From positions 2,514,292-2,578,291 of the forward strand of contig CM001633.1 of assembly GCA_000309945.1 (NCBI GenBank): a DNA stretch of 64,000 nucleotides. Direction: 5' to 3'. How positions within the stretch are numbered: the first letter of the stretch is position 1; the number at the start of each line of letters is the position of its first letter. The notes beneath the pieces were generated by a model. It had not been told where the DNA came from and searched no databases. It saw only the letters and a program-made list of their open reading frames with translations. Positions 10,492 through 23,358 of the stretch are shown piece after piece. This stretch comes from Leptolyngbyaceae cyanobacterium JSC-12. Its GTDB lineage: Bacteria; Cyanobacteriota; Cyanobacteriia; Leptolyngbyales; Leptolyngbyaceae. Made by a program: the position numbers and the translations under genes.

Positions 10492-10983
10492 ATGCTCAAA
10501 AGATGCATCTGGCTTGCAGTAGCCACTGTATTCTTCGCCTTTCAACTACTTGTTGGAAATGCTACGGCGGCGGAACTTGACGCAGCAACCCGCACTGTGC
10601 CGCTCAACGATGCAGGCGATACAATTACCCTCAGCCTGAAGCAGGTAAAAGAAGGGAAGCGCCTGTTTCAATATGCCTGTGCGCAATGTCATGTAGGCGG
10701 TATTACCAAAACTGATCCCAACATCGGATTGGACCCAGAAGCTCTGTCGTTGGCGACACCTCCTCGTAACAATATTGCTGCGCTGGTGGACTATATGAAG
10801 GATCCTACAAGTTACGACGGAGAACAATCGATCGCAGAAGTTCATCCTAGCCTTAAGAGCAAAGATACCTTCCCTGAAATGCGCAACCTGACTGAAGATG
10901 ATCTGGTGGCGATCGCAGGACATATTTTGCTGCAACCGAAAGTTGTTGGTGATAAGTGGGGCGGCGGCAAAATTTATTACTAA
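10492..10983 (+). CDS. psbV: Photosystem II cytochrome c550
   Basis: A 163-residue extrinsic luminal subunit that stabilises the Mn4CaO5 cluster of PSII. The signal peptide ends near NATA/AELD (residue 26/27). The heme-binding site is CAQCH (C63, C66, H67), and H118 in IAEVHPS is the second axial ligand expected of PsbV, giving bis-His coordination. The C-terminus GGGKIYY is characteristic. The ATG follows AAGGAGAACC. First gene of the psbV-psbV2-petE-petJ cluster; the next gene starts 40 bp later and is probably co-transcribed. Confidence 0.97.
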   Translation: MLKRCIWLAVATVFFAFQLLVGNATAAELDAATRTVPLNDAGDTITLSLKQVKEGKRLFQYACAQCHVGGITKTDPNIGLDPEALSLATPPRNNIAALVDYMKDPTSYDGEQSIAEVHPSLKSKDTFPEMRNLTEDDLVAIAGHILLQPKVVGDKWGGGKIYY

Positions 10984-11023
10984 GTCAAGTCTGTTGTTTG
11001 AGAGTTGTCACTAGGGGTTGCTG

Positions 11024-11530
11024 ATGCTGCAGCGCTTGTTTTGGCTACGTTTGTTAGTGGGGCTGTTGATTTGTTTGCTGACGCTTACTTTTGTCAACAT
11101 GCCAGCCTATGCAGCGACAGGAGACCCCTACGTGACTCGCTATCTTCGTGTAACTGACCCGATTAACTTGCCTTTCGATGATCAGGGCACTGTTCGTTTG
11201 TTTACTGCGACTGATTTATCTAAAGGGAAAAAGCTGTTTGAGAAAAATTGTTTAAGCTGCCATGTTGGCGGCACAACACTGCCAAACCCAAATGTTCCTT
11301 TATCTCTGACAGCCCTGCAAGGAGCCATTCCCCGTCGTGACACAATTAACAGCCTTGTTGCATTCCTCCGTCAACCAATGACCTATGACGGTAGTGAGGA
11401 GGCAATTTTGTGTCAGCGCATTCCTGAATCCTGGATGCCAACAGTTGACGTGGAAGCGATCGCAGCATTTATTTTACGAGCCGCCCAGAAAGCACCAGGT
11501 TGGGGAATTGAAACGTTTGAGAATTCGTGA
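11024..11530 (+). CDS. psbV2: PsbV2, cytochrome c550-like protein
   Basis: A 168-residue paralogue of PsbV with its own signal peptide ending near AYA/ATGD. The heme site is CLSCH (C76, C79, H80). The second-ligand His of PsbV is absent; in the matching region the sequence is SEEAILCQRIPESWM, offering C130. Structural work on Thermosynechococcus PsbV2 reported His/Cys heme ligation, which fits. Its role is unclear; it can partly replace PsbV. I prefer the ATG at 11024, preceded by AGGGG 6 bases upstream, over the TTG two codons earlier. It sits directly behind psbV, as in other cyanobacteria. Confidence 0.92.
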   Translation: MLQRLFWLRLLVGLLICLLTLTFVNMPAYAATGDPYVTRYLRVTDPINLPFDDQGTVRLFTATDLSKGKKLFEKNCLSCHVGGTTLPNPNVPLSLTALQGAIPRRDTINSLVAFLRQPMTYDGSEEAILCQRIPESWMPTVDVEAIAAFILRAAQKAPGWGIETFENS

Positions 11531-11626
11531 CTTTTGGAGTAAGAAAATTCGAGTTTAATCATCCGCCTTCTTCACAATTGCCTTAAAATTTGATTTGTAC
11601 GCAAGCTGTAGATTGCAAGGCAAGTT

Positions 11627-12046
11627 ATGAAATTAATCACTTCTATTGCAAAAGGCCTTTGTCTAGCCTTTGCTGCTGTTTCACTGGTTGTTTGTAGCCT
11701 CTTTATCTCCGTCGCTCCCGCAGCCGCTGAAACCTTTACTGTGAAAATGGGTGCAGACAATGGCATGCTCGCTTTCGAGCCATCAAAGTTAACAGTTAAA
11801 CCTGGTGACACTGTGAAGTGGGTCATCAACAAAGTGCCCCCCCACAACGTTGTTTTTGATGTATCCTCTGTCCCTGGTAGCGATAAAGCCCTGGCAACTT
11901 CTCTGTCTCATAAAAAGTTAGAAATGGCTCCTGGTGCTAGCTTCGAGCTAACCATCCCCGCTGATGCCCCTGTAGGTGAATACACTTACTACTGTGAGCC
12001 TCATCGGGGTGCTGGAATGGTTGGGAAGATTACCGTCGCTGGTTAG
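11627..12046 (+). CDS. petE: Plastocyanin
   Basis: A 139-residue precursor of the blue-copper protein that carries electrons from cytochrome f to PSI in the thylakoid lumen. The signal peptide ends at [10 protein letters not shown] (about residue 34). The copper ligands are all present: H73 in PPHNVVF, and C123, H126 and M131 in [10 protein letters not shown]. It lies between psbV2 and petJ, so the copper carrier and its heme replacement are neighbours. In many cyanobacteria petE is induced and petJ repressed by copper; I could not identify a binding site for the regulator here. Confidence 0.97.
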
Positions 12047-12206
12047 TTTCACCACTCGCTTTTCTAGTTTCATTGAGTTGTTTTTGCCTTTGGTCTGATT
12101 GGGTTTCTTCTCTCTCTTATTGTTCGAGAAGCATCACCAAGGCTTGAAGAGTAGTCCAGTTGATTGCTTTTAGTCCCTTTTGTTCTACTGTTGGAGAGGG
12201 AAACCC

Positions 12207-12542
12207 TTGAAAAAGCTGATACGCTCGTTGTTTTTCGCGATCGCCTGCTGGCTTGCTTTTTTCCATTCACCAGCCTATGCAGTAGACATCAGCAACGGAG
12301 CCAAGATCTTTAATGCAAATTGTTCAGCATGCCATGTTGGCGGAAACAACGTTATTATCTCCGGCAAAACTTTGAAGAAGGATGCGCTGGAGAAGTATGG
12401 GATGAACTCTTTAGAGGCAATTAAAGCCCAGGTGACAAACGGTAAAAATGCCATGCCTGCTTTTAAGAGTCGCCTAGATCAAACGCAAATCGAAGACGTT
12501 GCAGCCTTTGTATTGAGCCAATCTGCAAAAGGTTGGCAGTAA
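12207..12542 (+). CDS. petJ: Cytochrome c6
   Basis: A 111-residue precursor of the soluble luminal cytochrome that replaces plastocyanin as donor to PSI. The signal peptide ends near AYA/VDIS. The heme site is CSACH (C39, C42, H43) and M83 in KNAMPAF is the axial Met. The start is decided by the ribosome binding site: GGAGAGGG at 12192-12199 lies 7 bases before a TTG at 12207, after which KKLIRSL opens a normal signal peptide. No ATG is available; the frame also extends to another TTG at 12180 with no such site. A strong terminator follows at 12567. Confidence 0.93.
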
Positions 12543-14108: not shown

Positions 14109-16376
14109 CTACTGCTGGGATGGACGCTTCTGCAATTCGCGAAATGCCCGTTTAACGGAGTCTAAATTGGGTACCTTGCCCCCATATCGCCACTGCACAT
14201 ACGCCTGAGAAATTTGTTCAATTAGTTCTGCATGGGGTTTTGGTTGAGTTGCCTTTGCCTGAGCAACATACTCAAACGGAGTTTGGGTAGGGCGTTTGCG
14301 AAACCCCTGAGTATTGAGCCAATCCACCATTTGCCGATACAAGCGCTCCATTGGGGGTAAAGAGCCTAGCCAACGTCGGTAGCGCCAATTTCTCCAGAAT
14401 CTCCACAAAAGCCACCCAGCAAAAGCAGTACTAATTCCTAGAAGGAGTAAAATAAATAAACCAACCCACCCCTGCTGCCAAAGTCCTACCAACCAGCTAA
14501 CTACGGATGCCACCCAGGCAAAGACTCTCCCAAATACTTGCCCCAAGAAATTGCTAACGGGGGAAGGCAACCAACCTGCTACCCATTTCCAGAATTGTTG
14601 CAGCACGCTGAAAGTTTGGTCTTCTTCAATCGAAGGGGGAATCAGTTCATGACCGGGGATAGGATCAAAGGCAAACCAACCAAATTTCGGAAAATAAACT
14701 TCGGTCATGGCGTAAGCATCAGTGTTCTTCACTTCGTAGAGTCCGGTGAAGGGGTTGAACTCGCCTGGGGCAAATCCGACAACAAGCCGCGCTGGAATCC
14801 CAATTGATCGCAGCATGATGGTTAATGTTGTTGAGAAATGATCGGGATAGCCACCCTGGTACTTAAACAGAAAGGCTTCAACCAGGTCTTCTTTCGGGTT
14901 GAGATAGGGAAGTTCTGGTTGGATTGTGTAGCGTTGCTTCAATGCTTGTGCCAGAAATAAGGCTTTTTCATAAGGACTGGTGATGGGTTTTTCTGAAGTG
15001 GCTAGCAGTGTCTCCGCCTGGTTGCGAACCTTCTCTCGAATGTTAGCGGGCACCTCCATGTAGACTTGCCGAATTTTGTCGGTGTAGGTAGTAGGGGCTT
15101 GCTGTAACCGGGTGCGATCGCGGTAGGGCACGCTGGAAATGACAGTATAGGTTAACCCTTCTGATAAGCCCAGGGGCGATCGCAACGAGCCTTCAATATC
15201 CAGCGCGACTTGGGGCGTAGGGAAAAACAACTCTCTCGGATAGGTCAACGCTGGAATCACGTTAGGCAACTCGGCAACCATTGTATAGGTCTGAATCACC
15301 TCCTTCTTTTTGGATAGTGTAATCGGGACAGGCAAGAAAAACTGGTATGACCAGGCAGGACGTAGCACGGTTTTTGTTTGATTGTTGCGAGACAGTTCCC
15401 ACCCCTGCCCCAGATATTTATCAAACGCCATGACGCGCCAAAAACCTTCAGCCTGAGATCTGACCCGCATGACGATTCTCGGTTTCATCTGCCCACGCAG
15501 ATTTTGGTTCATTCGCGTGTTAAAGCCGTAGTAGTGGTTTTCATCCATTTCTCCGGGACCAGTTCCCCGTCCCTGCCGAACTTCGCCACTACCCGATACG
15601 TTGCCTTGCCGCACATAACCGGGATTGACAATTTGCTGGTTGTCCTGAAATTCTTGATTAATCGGACCGCTAACCGGAAAAGATCGTAGTTGATAGCCTG
15701 GAATCCGCGGCATCAGCATAAACAGCGTTAGCCCCAAGCCCAGAATCAGAACTAGGAACATCCCTAAACGCTTCCAGGACAGCCCAACTCGCTTGAATGG
15801 TGCTTTGTACGCACGACCTACCAGATCCAGGCGAGAACGGTAGTCCAATACCAGCACAGGTAACGCGATCGCCAGAAATAGCAACAAAAACAGCCCAAAG
15901 ATCGTCCTTTGACTAAGGGTGCTGGCAACGCCAATCAGGATCAAGCCAATCACCATTGAGTAGCCTAGATCCTGACGGCGCGGCATATGAAAACTATGCA
16001 ACACCTGAAGTTGAATCAATAATTCCGCTAGCACCAAGCGGGTATCGTTGAGTTGCTCTCTCAAACTAATGAAAAAAGCACCCATCGCTGCCAGCATTCC
16101 TAAGGCGATTAAGAACTTAGTTGCAACATTGCGTTTATGGCGATGAGTCCAACTCCAATAGCCTGCTAGTACAGTCAGCGGAACTGCCCACACGCTAAAT
16201 TGCGTCTCGGCTGCAACATCTGTGGCAATAATTCCCACAATCACCATTGCCTGAGTTAATACTCGTAGCAATAATGACTCTTCCGTTTTAGGTAGTGGCT
16301 GATCAGCGAACCGTTGCCGTAGCCGACGGAAGATAGATAGCGATCGCCGCTGATCGCCTGGAGAAAGGCTGGACAT
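14109..16376 (-). CDS. Transglutaminase-like membrane protein lacking the catalytic Cys and His
   Basis: A 755-residue protein of the TgpA type (DUF3488 + transglutaminase core + C-terminal helix). About six N-terminal membrane helices (residues 35-220) precede an extracytoplasmic region, the transglutaminase-like core (about 495-580), a further helix at about 632-652, and a cytoplasmic tail. The core keeps TLTIMLRSIGIPARLVVGFAPGEF, but the position of the nucleophilic Cys is Pro511 (GGYPDHFST) and the catalytic His is Tyr555 (NTDAYAMTEVYF); only Asp571 (FDPIP) remains. It cannot be a Cys protease or transamidase. A binding or scaffolding role at the envelope is inferred. It lies 77 bp behind patU. 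Confidence 0.85.
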   Translation of the reverse strand: MSSLSPGDQRRSLSIFRRLRQRFADQPLPKTEESLLLRVLTQAMVIVGIIATDVAAETQFSVWAVPLTVLAGYWSWTHRHKRNVATKFLIALGMLAAMGAFFISLREQLNDTRLVLAELLIQLQVLHSFHMPRRQDLGYSMVIGLILIGVASTLSQRTIFGLFLLLFLAIALPVLVLDYRSRLDLVGRAYKAPFKRVGLSWKRLGMFLVLILGLGLTLFMLMPRIPGYQLRSFPVSGPINQEFQDNQQIVNPGYVRQGNVSGSGEVRQGRGTGPGEMDENHYYGFNTRMNQNLRGQMKPRIVMRVRSQAEGFWRVMAFDKYLGQGWELSRNNQTKTVLRPAWSYQFFLPVPITLSKKKEVIQTYTMVAELPNVIPALTYPRELFFPTPQVALDIEGSLRSPLGLSEGLTYTVISSVPYRDRTRLQQAPTTYTDKIRQVYMEVPANIREKVRNQAETLLATSEKPITSPYEKALFLAQALKQRYTIQPELPYLNPKEDLVEAFLFKYQGGYPDHFSTTLTIMLRSIGIPARLVVGFAPGEFNPFTGLYEVKNTDAYAMTEVYFPKFGWFAFDPIPGHELIPPSIEEDQTFSVLQQFWKWVAGWLPSPVSNFLGQVFGRVFAWVASVVSWLVGLWQQGWVGLFILLLLGISTAFAGWLLWRFWRNWRYRRWLGSLPPMERLYRQMVDWLNTQGFRKRPTQTPFEYVAQAKATQPKPHAELIEQISQAYVQWRYGGKVPNLDSVKRAFRELQKRPSQQ

Positions 16377-16453: not shown

Positions 16454-17458
16454 CTAATCCAACCGAATAGCGAAGGATAGTGGTGCTTCCAAACCCTGCA
16501 GTGCTACTTCCAACCCGTAAGTATGGTTCAGTTCTGAATCAAACAACTCAGCGCTCAGGCAACCAGGAGTAGAGCGTTGGGTCATTGTTTGCTGTCCATT
16601 GCGCAGGAGCAACGTCCCACCACACGGTAAGGATGCTTGCACTCGAATTGAGGCTTGAGGAGTATACGTGACCTGTAACGTCACAACTCCTGCATCAGTT
16701 TCCCAGTGGCGATTAACCGTCGGTTCCTGAGCGGAGACCTTGAGAGTCAAACTGCTTACAATTTCCTTTGCTGCCAACAATGACAACAGCATTTGCTGAG
16801 CCGGAGCAGCCGCTTCGTAGTTGCTAATCACTGGTTCAGCAGTTCCAGCACTCGGCGATCGACTAGGTGACATCATCAAATTCACTGCCAAGTAGTTGAG
16901 CGCTTCGTCCTGCCCAGGAAATAGTTCTTCCACAGCACGAACCAACTTCTTACCATCTTGCAAAGATAATTGCACGACTTCTTGGCAGCGCTGAAGCAGA
17001 ATTGCTAACACAGATTCAGGAATATGGGCTGGTACAGGTAGCTTCATTGCTCTCACCTGACGTAGCCAGCCCCAAATACCAGGCTCAATAGCAGGTTCAG
17101 CCTCAGTTCCATAATCAAGAATCTCCGTCTCCCAGGGAAAGAGCGGAGGATTTTTTTCAATTTCGCCTCGTAAGTGTGTTTTTAACAAGGCTTGAAAACG
17201 TTCTTGCACAACAGGTACATCTCCAAGTTCAAGGAAAGACTCTTGCGAAAAAGAGTGGTTAGACTCAGAGAAATCGGATGTTGATGAATTCATAGGTCGC
17301 GGTGTGAGCAAATTTGGCTGTTCCAGGGCAAATTGTCCGGTCGCCTCGCACCCAAGCACTCGACTCGCCGCCTCAACATCTGGTGAAGATGCTGCGGGAA
17401 GCAAATCCTGTAACAGCATCAGTATACGCCTCTGAATATCCTCTGAGTCACGATTCAT
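16454..17458 (-). CDS. patU3: PatU-like heterocyst pattern protein
   Basis: A 334-residue protein encoded 11 bp behind hetZ in the same direction, the arrangement of patU3-hetZ in Anabaena. The N-terminal MNRDSEDIQRRILMLLQDLL is followed by a low-complexity Ser-rich linker, then a conserved helical block GIWGWLRQVRAMKLPVPAHI (about residues 127-146) and GKKLVRAVEELFPGQDEALN, and a C-terminal beta-rich region. In Anabaena the patU genes modulate heterocyst pattern. The molecular function is not known. Assignment rests on family memory and on the neighbour; which patU paralogue it matches best is less sure. Confidence 0.8.
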   Translation of the reverse strand: MNRDSEDIQRRILMLLQDLLPAASSPDVEAASRVLGCEATGQFALEQPNLLTPRPMNSSTSDFSESNHSFSQESFLELGDVPVVQERFQALLKTHLRGEIEKNPPLFPWETEILDYGTEAEPAIEPGIWGWLRQVRAMKLPVPAHIPESVLAILLQRCQEVVQLSLQDGKKLVRAVEELFPGQDEALNYLAVNLMMSPSRSPSAGTAEPVISNYEAAAPAQQMLLSLLAAKEIVSSLTLKVSAQEPTVNRHWETDAGVVTLQVTYTPQASIRVQASLPCGGTLLLRNGQQTMTQRSTPGCLSAELFDSELNHTYGLEVALQGLEAPLSFAIRLD

Positions 17459-17469
17459 GGTACAGATTC

Positions 17470-18642
17470 CTATTCATAGGTAGACTTGCCTTCTCCGGAA
17501 TCTATATCGTTACGAATTTCCCAGGCACACTCCAGTAGTTTGAACCAATGCTTCTGTACCTGCGTTACGGTGTAACCCAAGGCTTGAGCAATTTCAGCGT
17601 CGGATACTTTTTTCTGCTTCAACCGCAGCAATTTCTGTTGCTGCGGGTCGAGTCGAGAGTTAAATAATTGCCATTGATGCAGAGTCAAACCTAAGTTTTT
17701 CTCCAGATCTGCTTCTAGCCATTGATGTACGAGTTCCCATCGGTGAGACAAAGCAAATCGGATAAGGTGGTACTTAAATCGTTGTTGCAAATAATCTCGC
17801 TGGCGTGGAGTAAGTCCCAGGATGGCTTCGATTTCACTGGTAGGTAGGTCTTGTAAGCGCAGCGTAAAATAGTCGGCACAGTCGCTCTGATTGCGTTCAT
17901 CCAGGTAAGCAATTAATTCAGAAATCACTGTTTGCCGGAGGGTATCTTCAGCGGGTTCTGGTTCTTGGGCTACCATCTGTTCGCGCACTTGTTGCATAGA
18001 TGCGGCATTCCAAGCATTTTCGCCCTCACCAGAGATCCCTTCGGCTGCTTGTTCGATATCGACTGGTGTTTCAACGGGCTGCTGCTGAGAAAAAGTTTGA
18101 GCCCGTAAGATGATTAACTGTTGCGTACGGTGCCCTGGTAGGGGAATACGTCGCTTTGCATAACGTTCTGTAAATGCCATGTACTCTGCTAGTTGCAGTA
18201 GTGTTTTTGGAGTGTATTCGGGGGGGAGTTGATTTTCTCTCCGAAAAGCGTTGATAGCTTCTCCCAAAAAACCTTGCAAAAAATCTTCAATCAGGGGTAA
18301 CCGTGCCTGGTAGGTGGATTGGGATTGCGGTGGTGTGATGTAGCGATATACGACCGCACTGAGCGTACTAGCAAGCTCGACCCGTCCTCGTTCGGAGCCA
18401 AGTTTATAATAGTGCAAACATTGTTGTAGACGATGTTTGGATAAGGTTAAAGCCCACGATTCAGCATCGCCCGAAGCCTGAATGCGTTTGCTTTCAACGC
18501 AAATGCGATGCACTTCTTTGGAAATGCGGTCTGCTACGTCTCGGCAGTTCTGCTCAGAAGCGCTCGTAGACAGCTTGAATTCACTCAACAGTAGTTGAAA
18601 GATGGATTCCACGCTCTGGCAGATTTCCCCTACACTATTCAA
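17470..18642 (-). CDS. hetZ: HetZ-family transcriptional regulator
   Basis: A 390-residue protein recognised as HetZ, which in Anabaena acts early in heterocyst differentiation together with HetR. Conserved stretches are SKHRLQQCLHYYKLGSERGR, YQARLPLIEDFLQGF, EYMAFTERYAKRRIPLPG, DCADYFTLRLQDL, LTPRQRDYLQQRFKYHLI and FALSHRWELVHQWLE. A C-terminal helix-turn-helix (VSDAEIAQALGYTVTQVQKHWFKLL, about residues 345-369) would bind DNA. The predicted start is TTG at 18642; no strong ribosome binding site supports it. hetZ homologues also occur in filamentous species that do not make heterocysts, so the gene by itself does not prove differentiation. I see no HetR-type palindrome upstream. Confidence 0.9.
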   Translation of the reverse strand: MNSVGEICQSVESIFQLLLSEFKLSTSASEQNCRDVADRISKEVHRICVESKRIQASGDAESWALTLSKHRLQQCLHYYKLGSERGRVELASTLSAVVYRYITPPQSQSTYQARLPLIEDFLQGFLGEAINAFRRENQLPPEYTPKTLLQLAEYMAFTERYAKRRIPLPGHRTQQLIILRAQTFSQQQPVETPVDIEQAAEGISGEGENAWNAASMQQVREQMVAQEPEPAEDTLRQTVISELIAYLDERNQSDCADYFTLRLQDLPTSEIEAILGLTPRQRDYLQQRFKYHLIRFALSHRWELVHQWLEADLEKNLGLTLHQWQLFNSRLDPQQQKLLRLKQKKVSDAEIAQALGYTVTQVQKHWFKLLECAWEIRNDIDSGEGKSTYE

Positions 18643-18769
18643 CGTTCGACGATACCTCTGATGATAAGTTTCCTCAATTTTGGCAACGATCGCTCACCAT
18701 CGTCCAGATCAAAATTAGGTTTAGATAGATGAAGATTTAGTTCTTCTATACAAAAAATTGGGAGTCTGC

Positions 18770-19246
18770 ATGAACTTAGATGAACAAGTCCGTGATTTGA
18801 TTGACAATGCCCCCCAGGATGGAACCACTCCGGCGCTGGTTGAGGCGATCGCACCCGTTCTCAAACACTTGGCGACTCAACTTCGGCATCCGCAGTACTA
18901 CGTGGTGCAGTCCCTGGACAAAAGTTGGGTTGTTAACATCATAAGCCACAATACTGAATCAAATCTGGAACGCAAGGTAATCTATGCCTTTTCAACCTTA
19001 AAGGACGTGTCATTGGGACCTGTATCTGTTAAAGATCCGCAAATGATTGCCTTACCAGTGCCAGTTGTTCACATTTTGTTTCAAATGGCGGCGATGGAGG
19101 GGGTAGATAGCGTGATTTTCTTTGAAACGCCTGGTAATGCCATGATAGGGACTGAAATTCAGCGATCGCAGTTGCAGGAACTGATTCAGATCCAACTATA
19201 TGGACAAGTAAACCCTGCGGTGGAGATTCGACCAGATATTGCGTAA
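18770..19246 (+). CDS. Conserved cyanobacterial protein divergent from hetZ
   Basis: A 158-residue soluble protein. The ATG at 18770 has GGGAG 6 bases upstream and opens MNLDEQVRDLIDNAPQDG. The middle alternates strands and helices (QYYVVQSLDKSWVVNII, RKVIYAFSTLKD), ending with SVIFFETPGNAMIGTEIQRSQLQELIQ. I recognise it as a widespread cyanobacterial hypothetical but know no function. It is transcribed away from hetZ across 127 bp, which leaves room for a shared control region. Confidence 0.65.
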   Translation: MNLDEQVRDLIDNAPQDGTTPALVEAIAPVLKHLATQLRHPQYYVVQSLDKSWVVNIISHNTESNLERKVIYAFSTLKDVSLGPVSVKDPQMIALPVPVVHILFQMAAMEGVDSVIFFETPGNAMIGTEIQRSQLQELIQIQLYGQVNPAVEIRPDIA

Positions 19247-20025: not shown

Positions 20026-21294
20026 TTATTCTTGGTCTGGTTGTCTTAGTATGGGTTTTGGTTGAGAGCCAGCAAGATTTTGAATGGTTTCTGACAGATC
20101 AATTCCAGTTGTTTGGCGCAGTTGTTCCATGAAGGCGGCAAGTTTGGTCGCGGTGGTGCCACCGTTTCCGTCCACCACAGTCACAGTTTGGACGCTGATC
20201 TCGGGAACAGCATCAGTGAGGGTTTTGAGCAGAGTTTCCAGACGTTGCAGCAGGTAAATATCGCGAGCGTTGGGACCGGCAGCGCGCCAGGATTCGGCAA
20301 GGCGGAGGGTGCCATCGGCTCTGGCTCGCCCATCTTCAATGATTTTGGCGGCGTTCCCCTGTGCCTGAGCGATCGCTTGCTTCCATTGGGCTTCTGCTGG
20401 AGCAATCACATCTGCCTGGAGTTGCTGCTTCACTTGTTTGATGCGTTCTTGCTGTACAGGTACCTCAGCTTGAATGCGCGCTAGCTCAGAGGCAATTTCA
20501 GCGATCGCTTCAGCAACCACGGCATCTCGTTTAGTGAGAGTGTCTTTAACACGGCGGTCGGCATCGGCAGTGGCAATTTTGATGTCGCGATCGAGGCGAC
20601 TGAGGGCAGTGATTTTCTCATTTTCAGCAGTTTGGATAGCGGATTCGGAGCGTGCTCTTGCCTCAGCGATGCGAGCATCTCGCAGCATATCAGCCTGCTG
20701 CTTGCGTCCAATTGAGTCTAAATAGCGGACATCATCAGAAATATTCTGGATTTGCAGCGTATCCAGCACCAGACCCAGTTTTTCCAGGTCTTCCTCAGCT
20801 TCATCCAGCAAACTTCTGGCAAAAGCAATTTTGTCTTCGTTCACCTGCTCTGGAGTGAGACTAGCAAGTACACCACGCAGATTACCTTCCAGCGTTTCCT
20901 TTGCCATTTGCTCAATTTCGTCGCGGGTTTTGCCCAGCAAGCGCTCGATCGCGTTGTGGATGGCGGGTTCTTCTCCAGCAATTTTTATATTGGCAACGCC
21001 CTCGACCGTCAGAGGAATGCCGCCTTTTGAGTAGGCATTGGAGACGCGCAGATCAATGATTATGTTGCTCAAATCCATTCGCAGGGCGCGTTCCAGCAGA
21101 GGCACCCGAATGCTGCTGCCCCCTTTCACCAGGCGATAACCAACTTTGCGACCATCTGCCAGTTTACGAGAACTGCCTGCAAAAATCAGCACTTCGTTGG
21201 GCTGACAAATGTAATACAGGTTGCGGATCACGAAAAATCCGGCTCCGGTGCCCAAGCCCAAAATTCCAGCTAGCGCAATAATGGTTTCAAACAT
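20026..21294 (-). CDS. Flotillin-like SPFH protein (second of pair)
   Basis: A 422-residue flotillin-like protein. An N-terminal hydrophobic helix (about residues 3-27) is followed by the SPFH domain (CQPNEVLIFAGSS to about residue 160), which includes VSNAYSKGGIPLTVEGVANI, and then a long Ala/Glu-rich coiled coil to about 330. Such proteins assemble into cage-like or raft-like microdomains and organise other membrane proteins. It lies 20 bp behind a related flotillin gene, with which it shares the order of motifs (CNPNE/CQPNE, NAYSKGGIPL, ETLEGNLRGV), so the pair arose by duplication. Confidence 0.85.
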   Translation of the reverse strand: MFETIIALAGILGLGTGAGFFVIRNLYYICQPNEVLIFAGSSRKLADGRKVGYRLVKGGSSIRVPLLERALRMDLSNIIIDLRVSNAYSKGGIPLTVEGVANIKIAGEEPAIHNAIERLLGKTRDEIEQMAKETLEGNLRGVLASLTPEQVNEDKIAFARSLLDEAEEDLEKLGLVLDTLQIQNISDDVRYLDSIGRKQQADMLRDARIAEARARSESAIQTAENEKITALSRLDRDIKIATADADRRVKDTLTKRDAVVAEAIAEIASELARIQAEVPVQQERIKQVKQQLQADVIAPAEAQWKQAIAQAQGNAAKIIEDGRARADGTLRLAESWRAAGPNARDIYLLQRLETLLKTLTDAVPEISVQTVTVVDGNGGTTATKLAAFMEQLRQTTGIDLSETIQNLAGSQPKPILRQPDQE

Positions 21295-21314
21295 TCTCGA
21301 TTTCCAATTTTTTC

Positions 21315-22700
21315 TTACTTACTGCGGTTTAAGGTTGCGGCAACATCGATGCCAAGGGTTTGATCAACGCGATCGAGAAACTGGCGCACCACTTCGGGAT
21401 AAACATTGATCAGGCTTGCCAGGGCTTTCCCATCGCCATTGTCGATTACGTGGATCTGCTCCAGATGCATCCGGTTCGGGATCTTGGCAGCTTCTTGCAA
21501 AATCATTTCAATTTGCTGAATTAAAAAGACCTCGGCAGCATCCACGCCTGTCTCGCGCCAGACTTTGGTGAGCATATCGTTGACGAGAGCAGCGGCTTTG
21601 GTGTTTTCTGCCAGTTCGGCAGCGGCACCCTTTGCCAGAAAGGTTTGGGCTTCTTTATCGGCTTCTGCAGGCAAGACCTGATCCGCTTCTAGCCGCAACC
21701 GTTCCAACTCTGCCCGCACGGTTTGCAACTCCTGTTCGGCTCTGGCTCTGGCTTCTTTTTCAGCCGCTTTAGTGCGTTCTTCTTCCGATCTCGCCTGTTG
21801 TTCCAGTTCCGCTTTAATCTTGCGGAGTTCGTTTTGCTTTTGCTGAATGACTGCCAGTGCCTGAGATTTTGCCACTTCTGCCTGTTGTTGACAGTCTGCC
21901 TCCACTCGCTCCGCCTGACTCAATGCCTCCGCTTCGGCAATTTCGGCATCGCGAATAATTTGGGAAATCCGCTTTCGCCCAATTGATCGCAGGTAGTCCA
22001 CATCATCGGCAACGCTTTGGATTTTCAATGTGTCTAGATGCAGTCCCAGTTTGGACAAATCACGAGAAACATCCTGGGCGATGCGTTCCGCGAACTCTAA
22101 CCGATCTTCATTGATTTGTTCCGGCGTGAGCATAGCAACAACCCCGCGCAAGTTCCCTTCCAGGGTTTCTCTAGCAACGCGGGAAATTTCTGAGCGATCG
22201 CGTCCCAAAAAGCGCTCAATCGCATTGCCCACAATTTTCGCGTCGCTGGAAATTTTGACATTGGCGATCGCTTGAATATGCAGCGGGATACCACCCTTTG
22301 AATAAGCATTTTTTACTTCCACGGGCACAGGCATGGTCGTCAAATCCATCCGCTTCACCGTTTCTAAAATCGGGATGACAATGGTACGTCCACCAAAAAT
22401 TACCCGGTAGCCGACTTCCTGCCCTTCCTGTGTGCGGTGTTTGCGTCCCGACAACACCAAAATCTCATTGGGGTTGCAAATCTGCATGAAGCTTTTGACA
22501 AACCAGATAAATAAAATGGCTCCGAAAACAGACCAGCCAATGACGGGTGCTGCTGTTGATAAGGGGTTAGAACTCTCGCTTGGAGGATTAGATGCAGCGT
22601 CGGCTTGAGCAATGTAAACGATCTCACTATCCGATGTTTGACGAGTTGGGAATTGAATCTCTGAATAAATCAATTGGTTGTTCATCATATTATTTCTCAT
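21315..22700 (-). CDS. Flotillin-like SPFH protein (first of pair)
   Basis: A flotillin-like protein of 461 residues if the ATG at 22700 is used. An N-terminal region with a membrane helix (PVIGWSVFGAILFIWFVKSF) is followed by the SPFH domain (CNPNEILVLSGRK) and a coiled coil dense in Glu and Ala (residues 230-370), then a conserved C-terminal block DAAEVFLIQQIEMILQEAAK. The start overlaps the end of the NfeD-like gene by 11 bp, so translation is probably coupled; the ATG at 22688 would avoid the overlap. The three genes form one operon: NfeD-like, flotillin, flotillin. Confidence 0.85.
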   Translation of the reverse strand: MRNNMMNNQLIYSEIQFPTRQTSDSEIVYIAQADAASNPPSESSNPLSTAAPVIGWSVFGAILFIWFVKSFMQICNPNEILVLSGRKHRTQEGQEVGYRVIFGGRTIVIPILETVKRMDLTTMPVPVEVKNAYSKGGIPLHIQAIANVKISSDAKIVGNAIERFLGRDRSEISRVARETLEGNLRGVVAMLTPEQINEDRLEFAERIAQDVSRDLSKLGLHLDTLKIQSVADDVDYLRSIGRKRISQIIRDAEIAEAEALSQAERVEADCQQQAEVAKSQALAVIQQKQNELRKIKAELEQQARSEEERTKAAEKEARARAEQELQTVRAELERLRLEADQVLPAEADKEAQTFLAKGAAAELAENTKAAALVNDMLTKVWRETGVDAAEVFLIQQIEMILQEAAKIPNRMHLEQIHVIDNGDGKALASLINVYPEVVRQFLDRVDQTLGIDVAATLNRSK

Positions 22701-23358
22701 TTCCAATGCTCTCCTCGTCAGCAGAAACGACCCAGAGGCGGTTTTGCTCCATGCCTACCACCAGCACGCGATCGCCAGGTTGAAAGGCTCTGACATCATC
22801 GGTGTAAGCAATCAGATCAATAACACTGCCCTTTGTCAATAGCCGCACCTTGCCACGACTGGCTTGATCAAATGGTACTTCCACAGTTCCAGTTAACCCT
22901 ACTAAATCGTTAGAGCGTACCAGGCTATCCACTTGCCGTCGCTGTAACAGGCGCAAGCTACCAGCCACCAAACTGCCGCAAACAATGCCCATCAATACTG
23001 CTATGACTGCTACCAGAGCAGGTGCTAATCCGATCGCTAGGTGGGACAATACCAGCCCAGTCAACCCAAAAAAGCAGATGCCAAAGGTCCAGAACCTAAG
23101 ACTTTTGACAATACTAAAGACCGAGTACCAGGGCACACGCTGCCGTAAACGAGGCAACTCCGATGACAACTCTGCTGGAGCATCTACTAGTTCAAGATCC
23201 TCATCCAACTGCGGGTCGAAATCAAAATCGTCCAAGTTCGCAAAGTCTGCACCATCAATGCCGCTAAACATTGCCAGTAGCACAAACACGCCACCCACAG
23301 CAAAACACAGCCAATAAACAGTCACCATTACAATAGAGGACAAGAAAATCATTCCCAT
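22690..23358 (-). CDS. NfeD-like membrane protein with OB-fold domain
   Basis: A 222-residue protein with two hydrophobic regions at the N-terminus and middle (MGMIFLSSIVMVTVYWLCFA and FWTFGICFFGLTGLVLSHLA, then a third helix) and a C-terminal OB-like domain: LVGLTGTVEVPFDQASRGKVR ... FQPGDRVLVVGMEQNRLWVV. NfeD/YuaF proteins partner with flotillins, and the operon context here fits. The acidic segment between the first and second helices (DFANLDDFDFDPQLDEDLEL) is unusual. ATG at 23358 is preferred; the frame continues 10 codons upstream to a TTG. Confidence 0.75.
   Translation of the reverse strand: MGMIFLSSIVMVTVYWLCFAVGGVFVLLAMFSGIDGADFANLDDFDFDPQLDEDLELVDAPAELSSELPRLRQRVPWYSVFSIVKSLRFWTFGICFFGLTGLVLSHLAIGLAPALVAVIAVLMGIVCGSLVAGSLRLLQRRQVDSLVRSNDLVGLTGTVEVPFDQASRGKVRLLTKGSVIDLIAYTDDVRAFQPGDRVLVVGMEQNRLWVVSADEESIGNEK

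Follow-up and report, generated by a model that had tools for sequence, protein, structure and literature searches.

The window, that is, the whole stretch of 64,000 nucleotides of the Leptolyngbyaceae cyanobacterium JSC-12 genome that was analyzed, carries on its reverse strand a tgpA-like gene (14109..16376, ATG start), which encodes a membrane protein of 755 amino acids with a catalytically dead transglutaminase core. Three Pfam domains were assigned to it, in the order characteristic of TgpA-type proteins: TgpA_N (PF11992; residues 44–420, reverse strand 15117..16247) with an E-value of 1e-22, above the cut-off; Transglut_core (PF01841; residues 464–572, reverse strand 14661..14987) with an E-value of 4e-21, also above the cut-off and accompanied by a fold match to PDB entry 6g49; and DUF4129 (PF13559; residues 679–748, reverse strand 14133..14342) as the C-terminal tail, with an E-value of 1e-16 and 61.2 bits against a cut-off of 24.8. 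The TgpA_N region is predicted to comprise N-terminal hydrophobic helices, as placed by a low-confidence model, and a periplasmic region.

Directly upstream of tgpA, on the same strand and separated from it by a gap of 77 bases, lies a patU-like gene (reverse strand, 16454..17458; 334 aa), which was recognized by its position downstream of hetZ, where it is conserved, the Pfam and NCBIfam models having given zero matches to this ORF. It is preceded by hetZ (reverse strand, 17470..18642; 390 aa), which matched the NF037963 equivalog model with 662 bits against a cut-off of 550. The far end of this hetZ–patU–tgpA unit is marked by a divergent gene that we call orf162 (forward strand, 18758..19246; 162 aa), identified as a conserved ORF. 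A promoter/terminator scan gave fewer hits than shuffled sequences (2 versus 5.2 and 4 versus 5.7), none of them between patU and tgpA. Elsewhere in the window, a cluster of small ORFs at 10492–12542 presumably encodes, judging by motif, c-type cytochrome-like proteins and one plastocyanin-like protein, and two adjacent ORFs at 20026–22706, which we take to be flotillin/band-7-like, were also observed; the first of the two had a strong match, again paired, in three other genomes (G121, G368, and G143).

A phmmer search of the PDB (E up to 1) matched one distinct sequence, TgpA of Pseudomonas aeruginosa (6g49/6g4h), with an E-value of 1e-13, which argues for common descent with TgpA together with the grouping in the tree described below with TgpA sequences of other classes that carry the Cys-His-Asp triad (C/H/D). 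In the alignment to 6g49, the position of the catalytic Cys is occupied by P511 (GGYPDHF; codon at 14844..14846, reverse strand) and that of the catalytic His by Y555 (DAYAMTE versus DAHAWVE in TgpA; 14712..14714, reverse strand), the catalytic Asp is retained as D571 (14664..14666, reverse strand), and the Trp two residues after the catalytic His is replaced by M557. The triad of active transglutaminases is thus P/Y/D in the JSC-12 protein, just as the earlier note on this DNA had claimed, and there is no cysteine anywhere in its 755 residues. A sequencing or frame artefact as the source of the dead triad was rejected, as relatives agree. A second active TgpA in the same genome was also rejected, since the genome, a single contig of 5.53 Mb, contains one TgpA_N gene; its remaining four proteins with PF01841 have the Cys, His, and Asp motifs and no TgpA_N match.

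The model of the core (residues 420–610) had a pLDDT of 70 and a pTM of 0.71, with a pLDDT below 50 for residues 534–554 just before the His site, and the whole-chain model was poor (pLDDT of 49). By Foldseek, the best match of the core model was TgpA 6g49, with an E-value of 9e-8, and the note's further statement that the fold is otherwise intact is supported. VIA-align gave a putative cysteine protease (3isr) as the top match, with a Z of 14.6, and protein 4.2 and animal transglutaminases as a second group, with a Z of about 9 to 10.6; TgpA had a Z of 9.0–9.2, below several other transglutaminases.

Homologues were searched for in 386 genomes, which are a sample of the phylum, with matches found in 157 of them, all listed and counted by hand; the strong matches and 12 weak ones were fetched with their flanks and aligned. 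Before tree building, we removed the copies L046, L167, and L168 as well as all rows that were shorter than 450 aa or had a gap in one of the triad columns, namely, pieces of L108 and L160–L166. Where these removed pieces cover the position of the catalytic Cys, it is present in L160, which belongs to another class, and absent from L162, L164, and L108. The resulting tree of 153 rows, in which the triad columns and three columns on each side of them were masked, was rooted on 12 chosen weak-match rows, and is a quick one, made without a mixture model and with long outgroup branches; 13 rows are named records beside the genome sample, and L008 and L035 are identical in sequence. A single clade with an SH-aLRT of 100 held 125 cyanobacterial rows, which comprise those of class Cyanobacteriia by kinship label and the 13 named records, and its sister was a group of 16 rows from other classes of the phylum, which are presumably non-photosynthetic.

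The 16 sister rows all have C, H, D, and W at the corresponding sites. Within the clade of 125 rows, the Cys column holds P in 106, A in 12, E in three, and R, V, G, and I in one each; the His column holds Y in 85, F in 20, H in 15, and Q in five, so that His was lost in 110; the Asp column holds D in 109 and N in 16; and site 557, that of the Trp, always holds M, L, I, or V. Hence, the Pro and Tyr, whose fixation across cyanobacteria the note had proposed to check, are not fixed, and what is constant is the absence of Cys; its concern that close relatives might have both Cys and His did not materialize, since Cys occurs in 0 of the 125 rows. The deepest-branching orthologues (L129–L131, family f26) have the triad E/Q/D within a different loop (GGGEESHF). 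The simplest reading of the sequences is that Cys was lost once before the deepest sampled split, that of family f26, and that the catalytic sites then drifted. Families f10, f17, f19, and f25 have neither the dead TgpA nor a close orthologue of the DUF58 protein described below, and all eight rows fetched from them (L148–L152, L155, L157, and L158) are C/H/D TgpA-like.

The dead core is the best-kept part of the chain. The mean column entropy over the 125 rows was 0.89 bits for the core, compared with 1.43 for the N-terminal helices, 1.34 for the beta region, 1.73 for the post-core region, and 1.79 for DUF4129, and the order of the domains was the same in the 16 active-type rows, in which the core had 1.12 bits. 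The dN/dS against the nearest relative (L031, 87% identical) was 0.017 for the core and 0.056 for the whole protein, both of which are rough values because the silent sites are well diverged, with a dS of about 1.4. The whole-protein value was computable only for this relative, the silent sites being saturated overall against L032, L043, and L033; single values left for L033 were 0.040 for the core and 0.175 for the beta region. Such conservation implies a binding or structural role, and a new binding surface is suggested by L522, N551, F589, W596, and W598, which vary in the active-type rows but are invariant in the dead clade. That the protein is conserved as a dead one, as previously proposed, thus agrees with the Cys-free clade, its low core entropy, and the low dN/dS.

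HetZ was found over the NF037963 cut-off in 78 genomes. In 59 of them, tgpA follows hetZ downstream at no more than 3 kb and in the same orientation (gaps of 4–1974 bases, median 1355), a count that includes G022 and G385, in which tgpA is truncated or broken, and in four more it does so at 3.5–4.6 kb, giving 63 of the 78 within 5 kb. The neighbourhood, which the earlier note feared might be unique to this genome, is therefore kept. As for the remaining genomes, tgpA is adjacent but inverted in one (the arrangement observed at L084 in genome G149), some 7 to 11 kb away in opposite orientation in one, far away in two, on another contig in eight, and absent in three; among the eight is G153, in which patU and tgpA each lie near a contig end and the unit may be intact. 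Because tgpA is far, on another contig, or gone in some HetZ genomes, the link to hetZ–patU is not obligatory, and orf162, hetZ, and patU occur together without tgpA in G011, G286, G170, G033, and G135.

The same TgpA protein is also present in families f6, f12, f13, f18, f20, and f26 and others, in which HetZ was not over the cut-off and many members of which we presume to be unicellular. Its function there is independent of HetZ, and it is, therefore, not a heterocyst protein as such; of the envelope role in filaments that had been proposed, the envelope part is retained in our reading below, whereas it is unlikely that the role is confined to filaments. In those f12 and f3 genomes whose HetZ search stayed below the cut-off, orf162 and tgpA face each other directly (L079, L088, L091, L096, L163, L165, and L166), which is likely a scar of the loss of hetZ–patU from between them and could mark HetZ-bearing ancestry. 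A separate observation concerns G022 (L127, 4897–7725), in which hetZ and tgpA share one frame of 943 aa: positions 1–342 of the HetZ profile run into TgpA from about residue 201, there is no patU match, most of the TgpA N-terminal helices are gone, and the DUF58 orthologue is still present. This fusion has the appearance of one deletion event. A previous report mentions a gene for a transglutaminase within the patU cluster, which it describes as interrupted by a stop at codon 13 in two strains of Fischerella/Mastigocladus and as coding for a functional transglutaminase in Anabaena PCC 7120; the accessible part of that report has no mention of a dead triad for this gene (PMC9284123).

The JSC-12 genome encodes a DUF58 protein of 401 aa at 4.13 Mb, compared with 2.53 Mb for tgpA. 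Its gene precedes one for DUF309 and another that is LptA-like, and MoxR is encoded elsewhere in the genome; the adjacency of DUF58 to tgpA known from MoxR–DUF58–TgpA systems is thus lacking, but the partner is present and co-inherited. A search of the same 386 genomes gave DUF58 matches in 141, all listed and counted by hand, with close orthologues defined by an E-value below 1e-80 and the match being in pieces in G019 and G091. The close DUF58 orthologue and the dead TgpA occurred in exactly the same 114 genomes, and neither occurred alone in any of the 386; the 114 include G022 with its truncated tgpA fused to hetZ, G005 and G374 with tgpA split over two contigs, and G170 and, again, G005 with one stop in the matched stretch. 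Common descent inflates this figure of 114 genomes with both genes, so that information comes from the losses alone.

Both genes are broken in the same two genomes, G385 (three stops in tgpA and eight in the DUF58 gene) and G121, and both are missing in seven Cyanobacteriia outside f10, f17, f19, and f25 (G051, G233, G087, G147, G183, G070, and G159; G087 gave a weak match in the TgpA search, with an E-value of 1e-9). In G051, G233, and G087, hetZ, patU, and orf162 remain, as does another DUF58 protein, and the congeners G368 (of G121) and G143 (of G147 and G183) keep both genes. From the genus codes and a HetZ tree, for which 26 of 59 HetZ rows were used, the joint losses and breaks represent about five to seven separate events. 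They are not explicable by one deletion, because a distance of at least 96 kb separates tgpA from the DUF58 gene in all 48 same-contig cases measured. Several of the loss genomes are small, and general genome reduction can explain part of the joint loss: a rhomboid control gave any match in six of the nine loss genomes and a strong one in four (one with a stop), being lost or weak in five, whereas the DUF309 neighbour of the DUF58 gene was kept in all nine. The flotillin-like neighbour was uninformative as a control because it is also missing in an intact genome (G072). In the sister classes, DUF58 lies directly before C/H/D TgpA in nine of the 16 loci (L139–L147); it was not found beside TgpA in the other seven (L132–L138), which include the best-scoring ones and of which L133 and L138 offer little upstream sequence. 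In G135 (L178, 3241–7778), the order is orf162, hetZ, patU, DUF58, and DUF309, so that DUF58 takes the slot that tgpA takes elsewhere, which ties the pair to this slot a second time, in one case.

Several other explanations need to be considered. The core could still be an enzyme that uses another nucleophile or obtains the missing group from a partner, and the strong constraint on it and the polar residues that are invariant or nearly so in the clade (R523, R530, N541, T544, N551, D553, and E559) are in keeping with this. However, all of these residues except N551 are also common in the active-type rows and are, therefore, probably structural. Moreover, the protein is free of Cys, the periplasmic part of the clade alignment has no conserved Cys column that could hide an alternative one, and the Cys site varies from P to A, E, R, V, G, and I while the His and Asp sites drift, unlike an active site, so that we regard retained catalysis as very unlikely. 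It is scarcely credible that the protein is a decaying relic heading for loss: tgpA is indeed broken or lost in G385, G121, G051, G233, and G087, and the reported stop in codon 13 points the same way, but the gene is present in 114 sampled genomes and is under strong purifying selection, which is strongest in the dead core.

With respect to the locus, the protein might belong to heterocysts or filaments and act specifically together with HetZ and PatU. The position of tgpA behind hetZ in the 63 genomes, which belong to many families, would fit this, as would the DUF58 partner taking the same slot in G135 and the finding, in the accessible part of the report concerned, that PatU3 binds HetZ and the divisome protein ZipS and limits septal peptidoglycan synthesis (PMC12288457). 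We nevertheless consider such specificity improbable in view of the families that have the same protein without HetZ over the cut-off, the five genomes in which orf162–hetZ–patU stands without tgpA, and the three HetZ genomes without tgpA. Alternatively, tgpA may have come to lie behind hetZ–patU by early chance and been retained in this place although the genes are functionally unconnected. The same pattern would result if the genes were joined once, early on, and then inherited in that order, and tgpA lies elsewhere in G011 (f5), in f9, and in G286 (f29). Gene order is, however, generally poorly kept in cyanobacteria, and the order in question has persisted across many families; chance would, in addition, have to account for a second coincidence, the DUF58 gene in that slot in G135. 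Mere placement is thus a possible but somewhat doubtful account of the locus, and it is compatible with our main explanation, which needs no link to hetZ.

Taken together, the protein is probably the cyanobacterial TgpA pseudoenzyme and the scaffold of a DUF58–TgpA envelope complex, a function that we infer. On the simplest view, TgpA would have turned into a pseudoenzyme a single time, in the ancestor shared by its cyanobacterial carriers. The N-terminal helices would hold the protein in the inner membrane, with the dead core facing the periplasm, where it may bind a putative ligand, either a protein or a peptidoglycan peptide, without turnover, and with the DUF4129 tail facing the cytoplasm. 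Together with the DUF58 protein, the dead TgpA may then take part in the assembly or adjustment of the cell envelope, serving there as a scaffold or sensor. As tgpA is joined to hetZ–patU in many HetZ lineages, its dose may follow the regulators of division and differentiation. More tentatively, and with less than an even chance in our estimation, the transglutaminase subunit of a TgpA–DUF58 envelope complex died before cyanobacteria diversified and became a binding subunit, and the complex was placed beside hetZ–patU in HetZ-bearing, mostly filamentous lineages, by a move of tgpA in most and of DUF58 in G135, which would tie septal or envelope assembly to division and differentiation.

Neither a dead TgpA in cyanobacteria nor its link to DUF58 came up in a search of the open-access literature. 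The presence of the pseudoenzyme in most sampled cyanobacterial families, with the core as its most constrained part, points to a non-catalytic job of the TgpA core, which bears on why other bacteria need TgpA. Furthermore, the joint loss points to a candidate DUF58–TgpA partnership between two families that are both poorly understood, and the location downstream of hetZ–patU represents a possible route from the differentiation regulators to the cell envelope.

Among known proteins with the transglutaminase fold, human erythrocyte protein 4.2 (EPB42; chains 7uzs, 8cs9_X, and 8csw, with a Z of 10.2–10.6) is a catalytically dead transglutaminase that acts as a scaffold in a membrane complex. It differs from the cyanobacterial protein in its cytoplasmic side, animal origin, and other domains, and we cite it as an analogy for the principle of a dead scaffold, with no membership implied and no evidence of function provided for the cyanobacterial protein. 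The transglutaminase-homology domain of Rad4/XPC, which was among the Foldseek matches, is likewise a dead transglutaminase fold used for binding, although it is remote, belonging to nuclear DNA repair.

Among the closest known counterparts is TgpA of P. aeruginosa (PA2873; 6g49 and 6g4h), the sole sequence match in the PDB, which shares TgpA_N and the transglutaminase core. Its triad is C/H/D, whereas that of the cyanobacterial protein reads P/Y/D, with Cys absent from the whole chain. A further difference is that the cyanobacterial tgpA is far from the DUF58 gene and usually lies behind hetZ–patU where HetZ is present. PA2874 is, we assume, a DUF58 protein. The accessible part of the report on PaTgpA describes transglutaminase activity in vitro, a predicted periplasmic core, apparent essentiality, a role in the cell wall suggested by the authors, and co-transcription of PA2875, PA2874, and PA2873 (PMC3507681). 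The pairing of DUF58 with a transglutaminase in MoxR–DUF58–TgpA operons recurs in the nine sister-class loci, whereas the parts are scattered in cyanobacteria, as the distances in the 48 measured cases indicate. In the accessible part of another report, the bifidobacterial PFNA cluster holds an AAA-ATPase, DUF58, and a transglutaminase, and mycobacterial moxR1–DUF58 stands beside ripAB, which encodes cell-wall NlpC/P60 peptidases (PMC12067865). By analogy with PaTgpA, moxR1–DUF58 beside ripAB, and PatU3, a role of the cyanobacterial protein in the envelope or septum is plausible.
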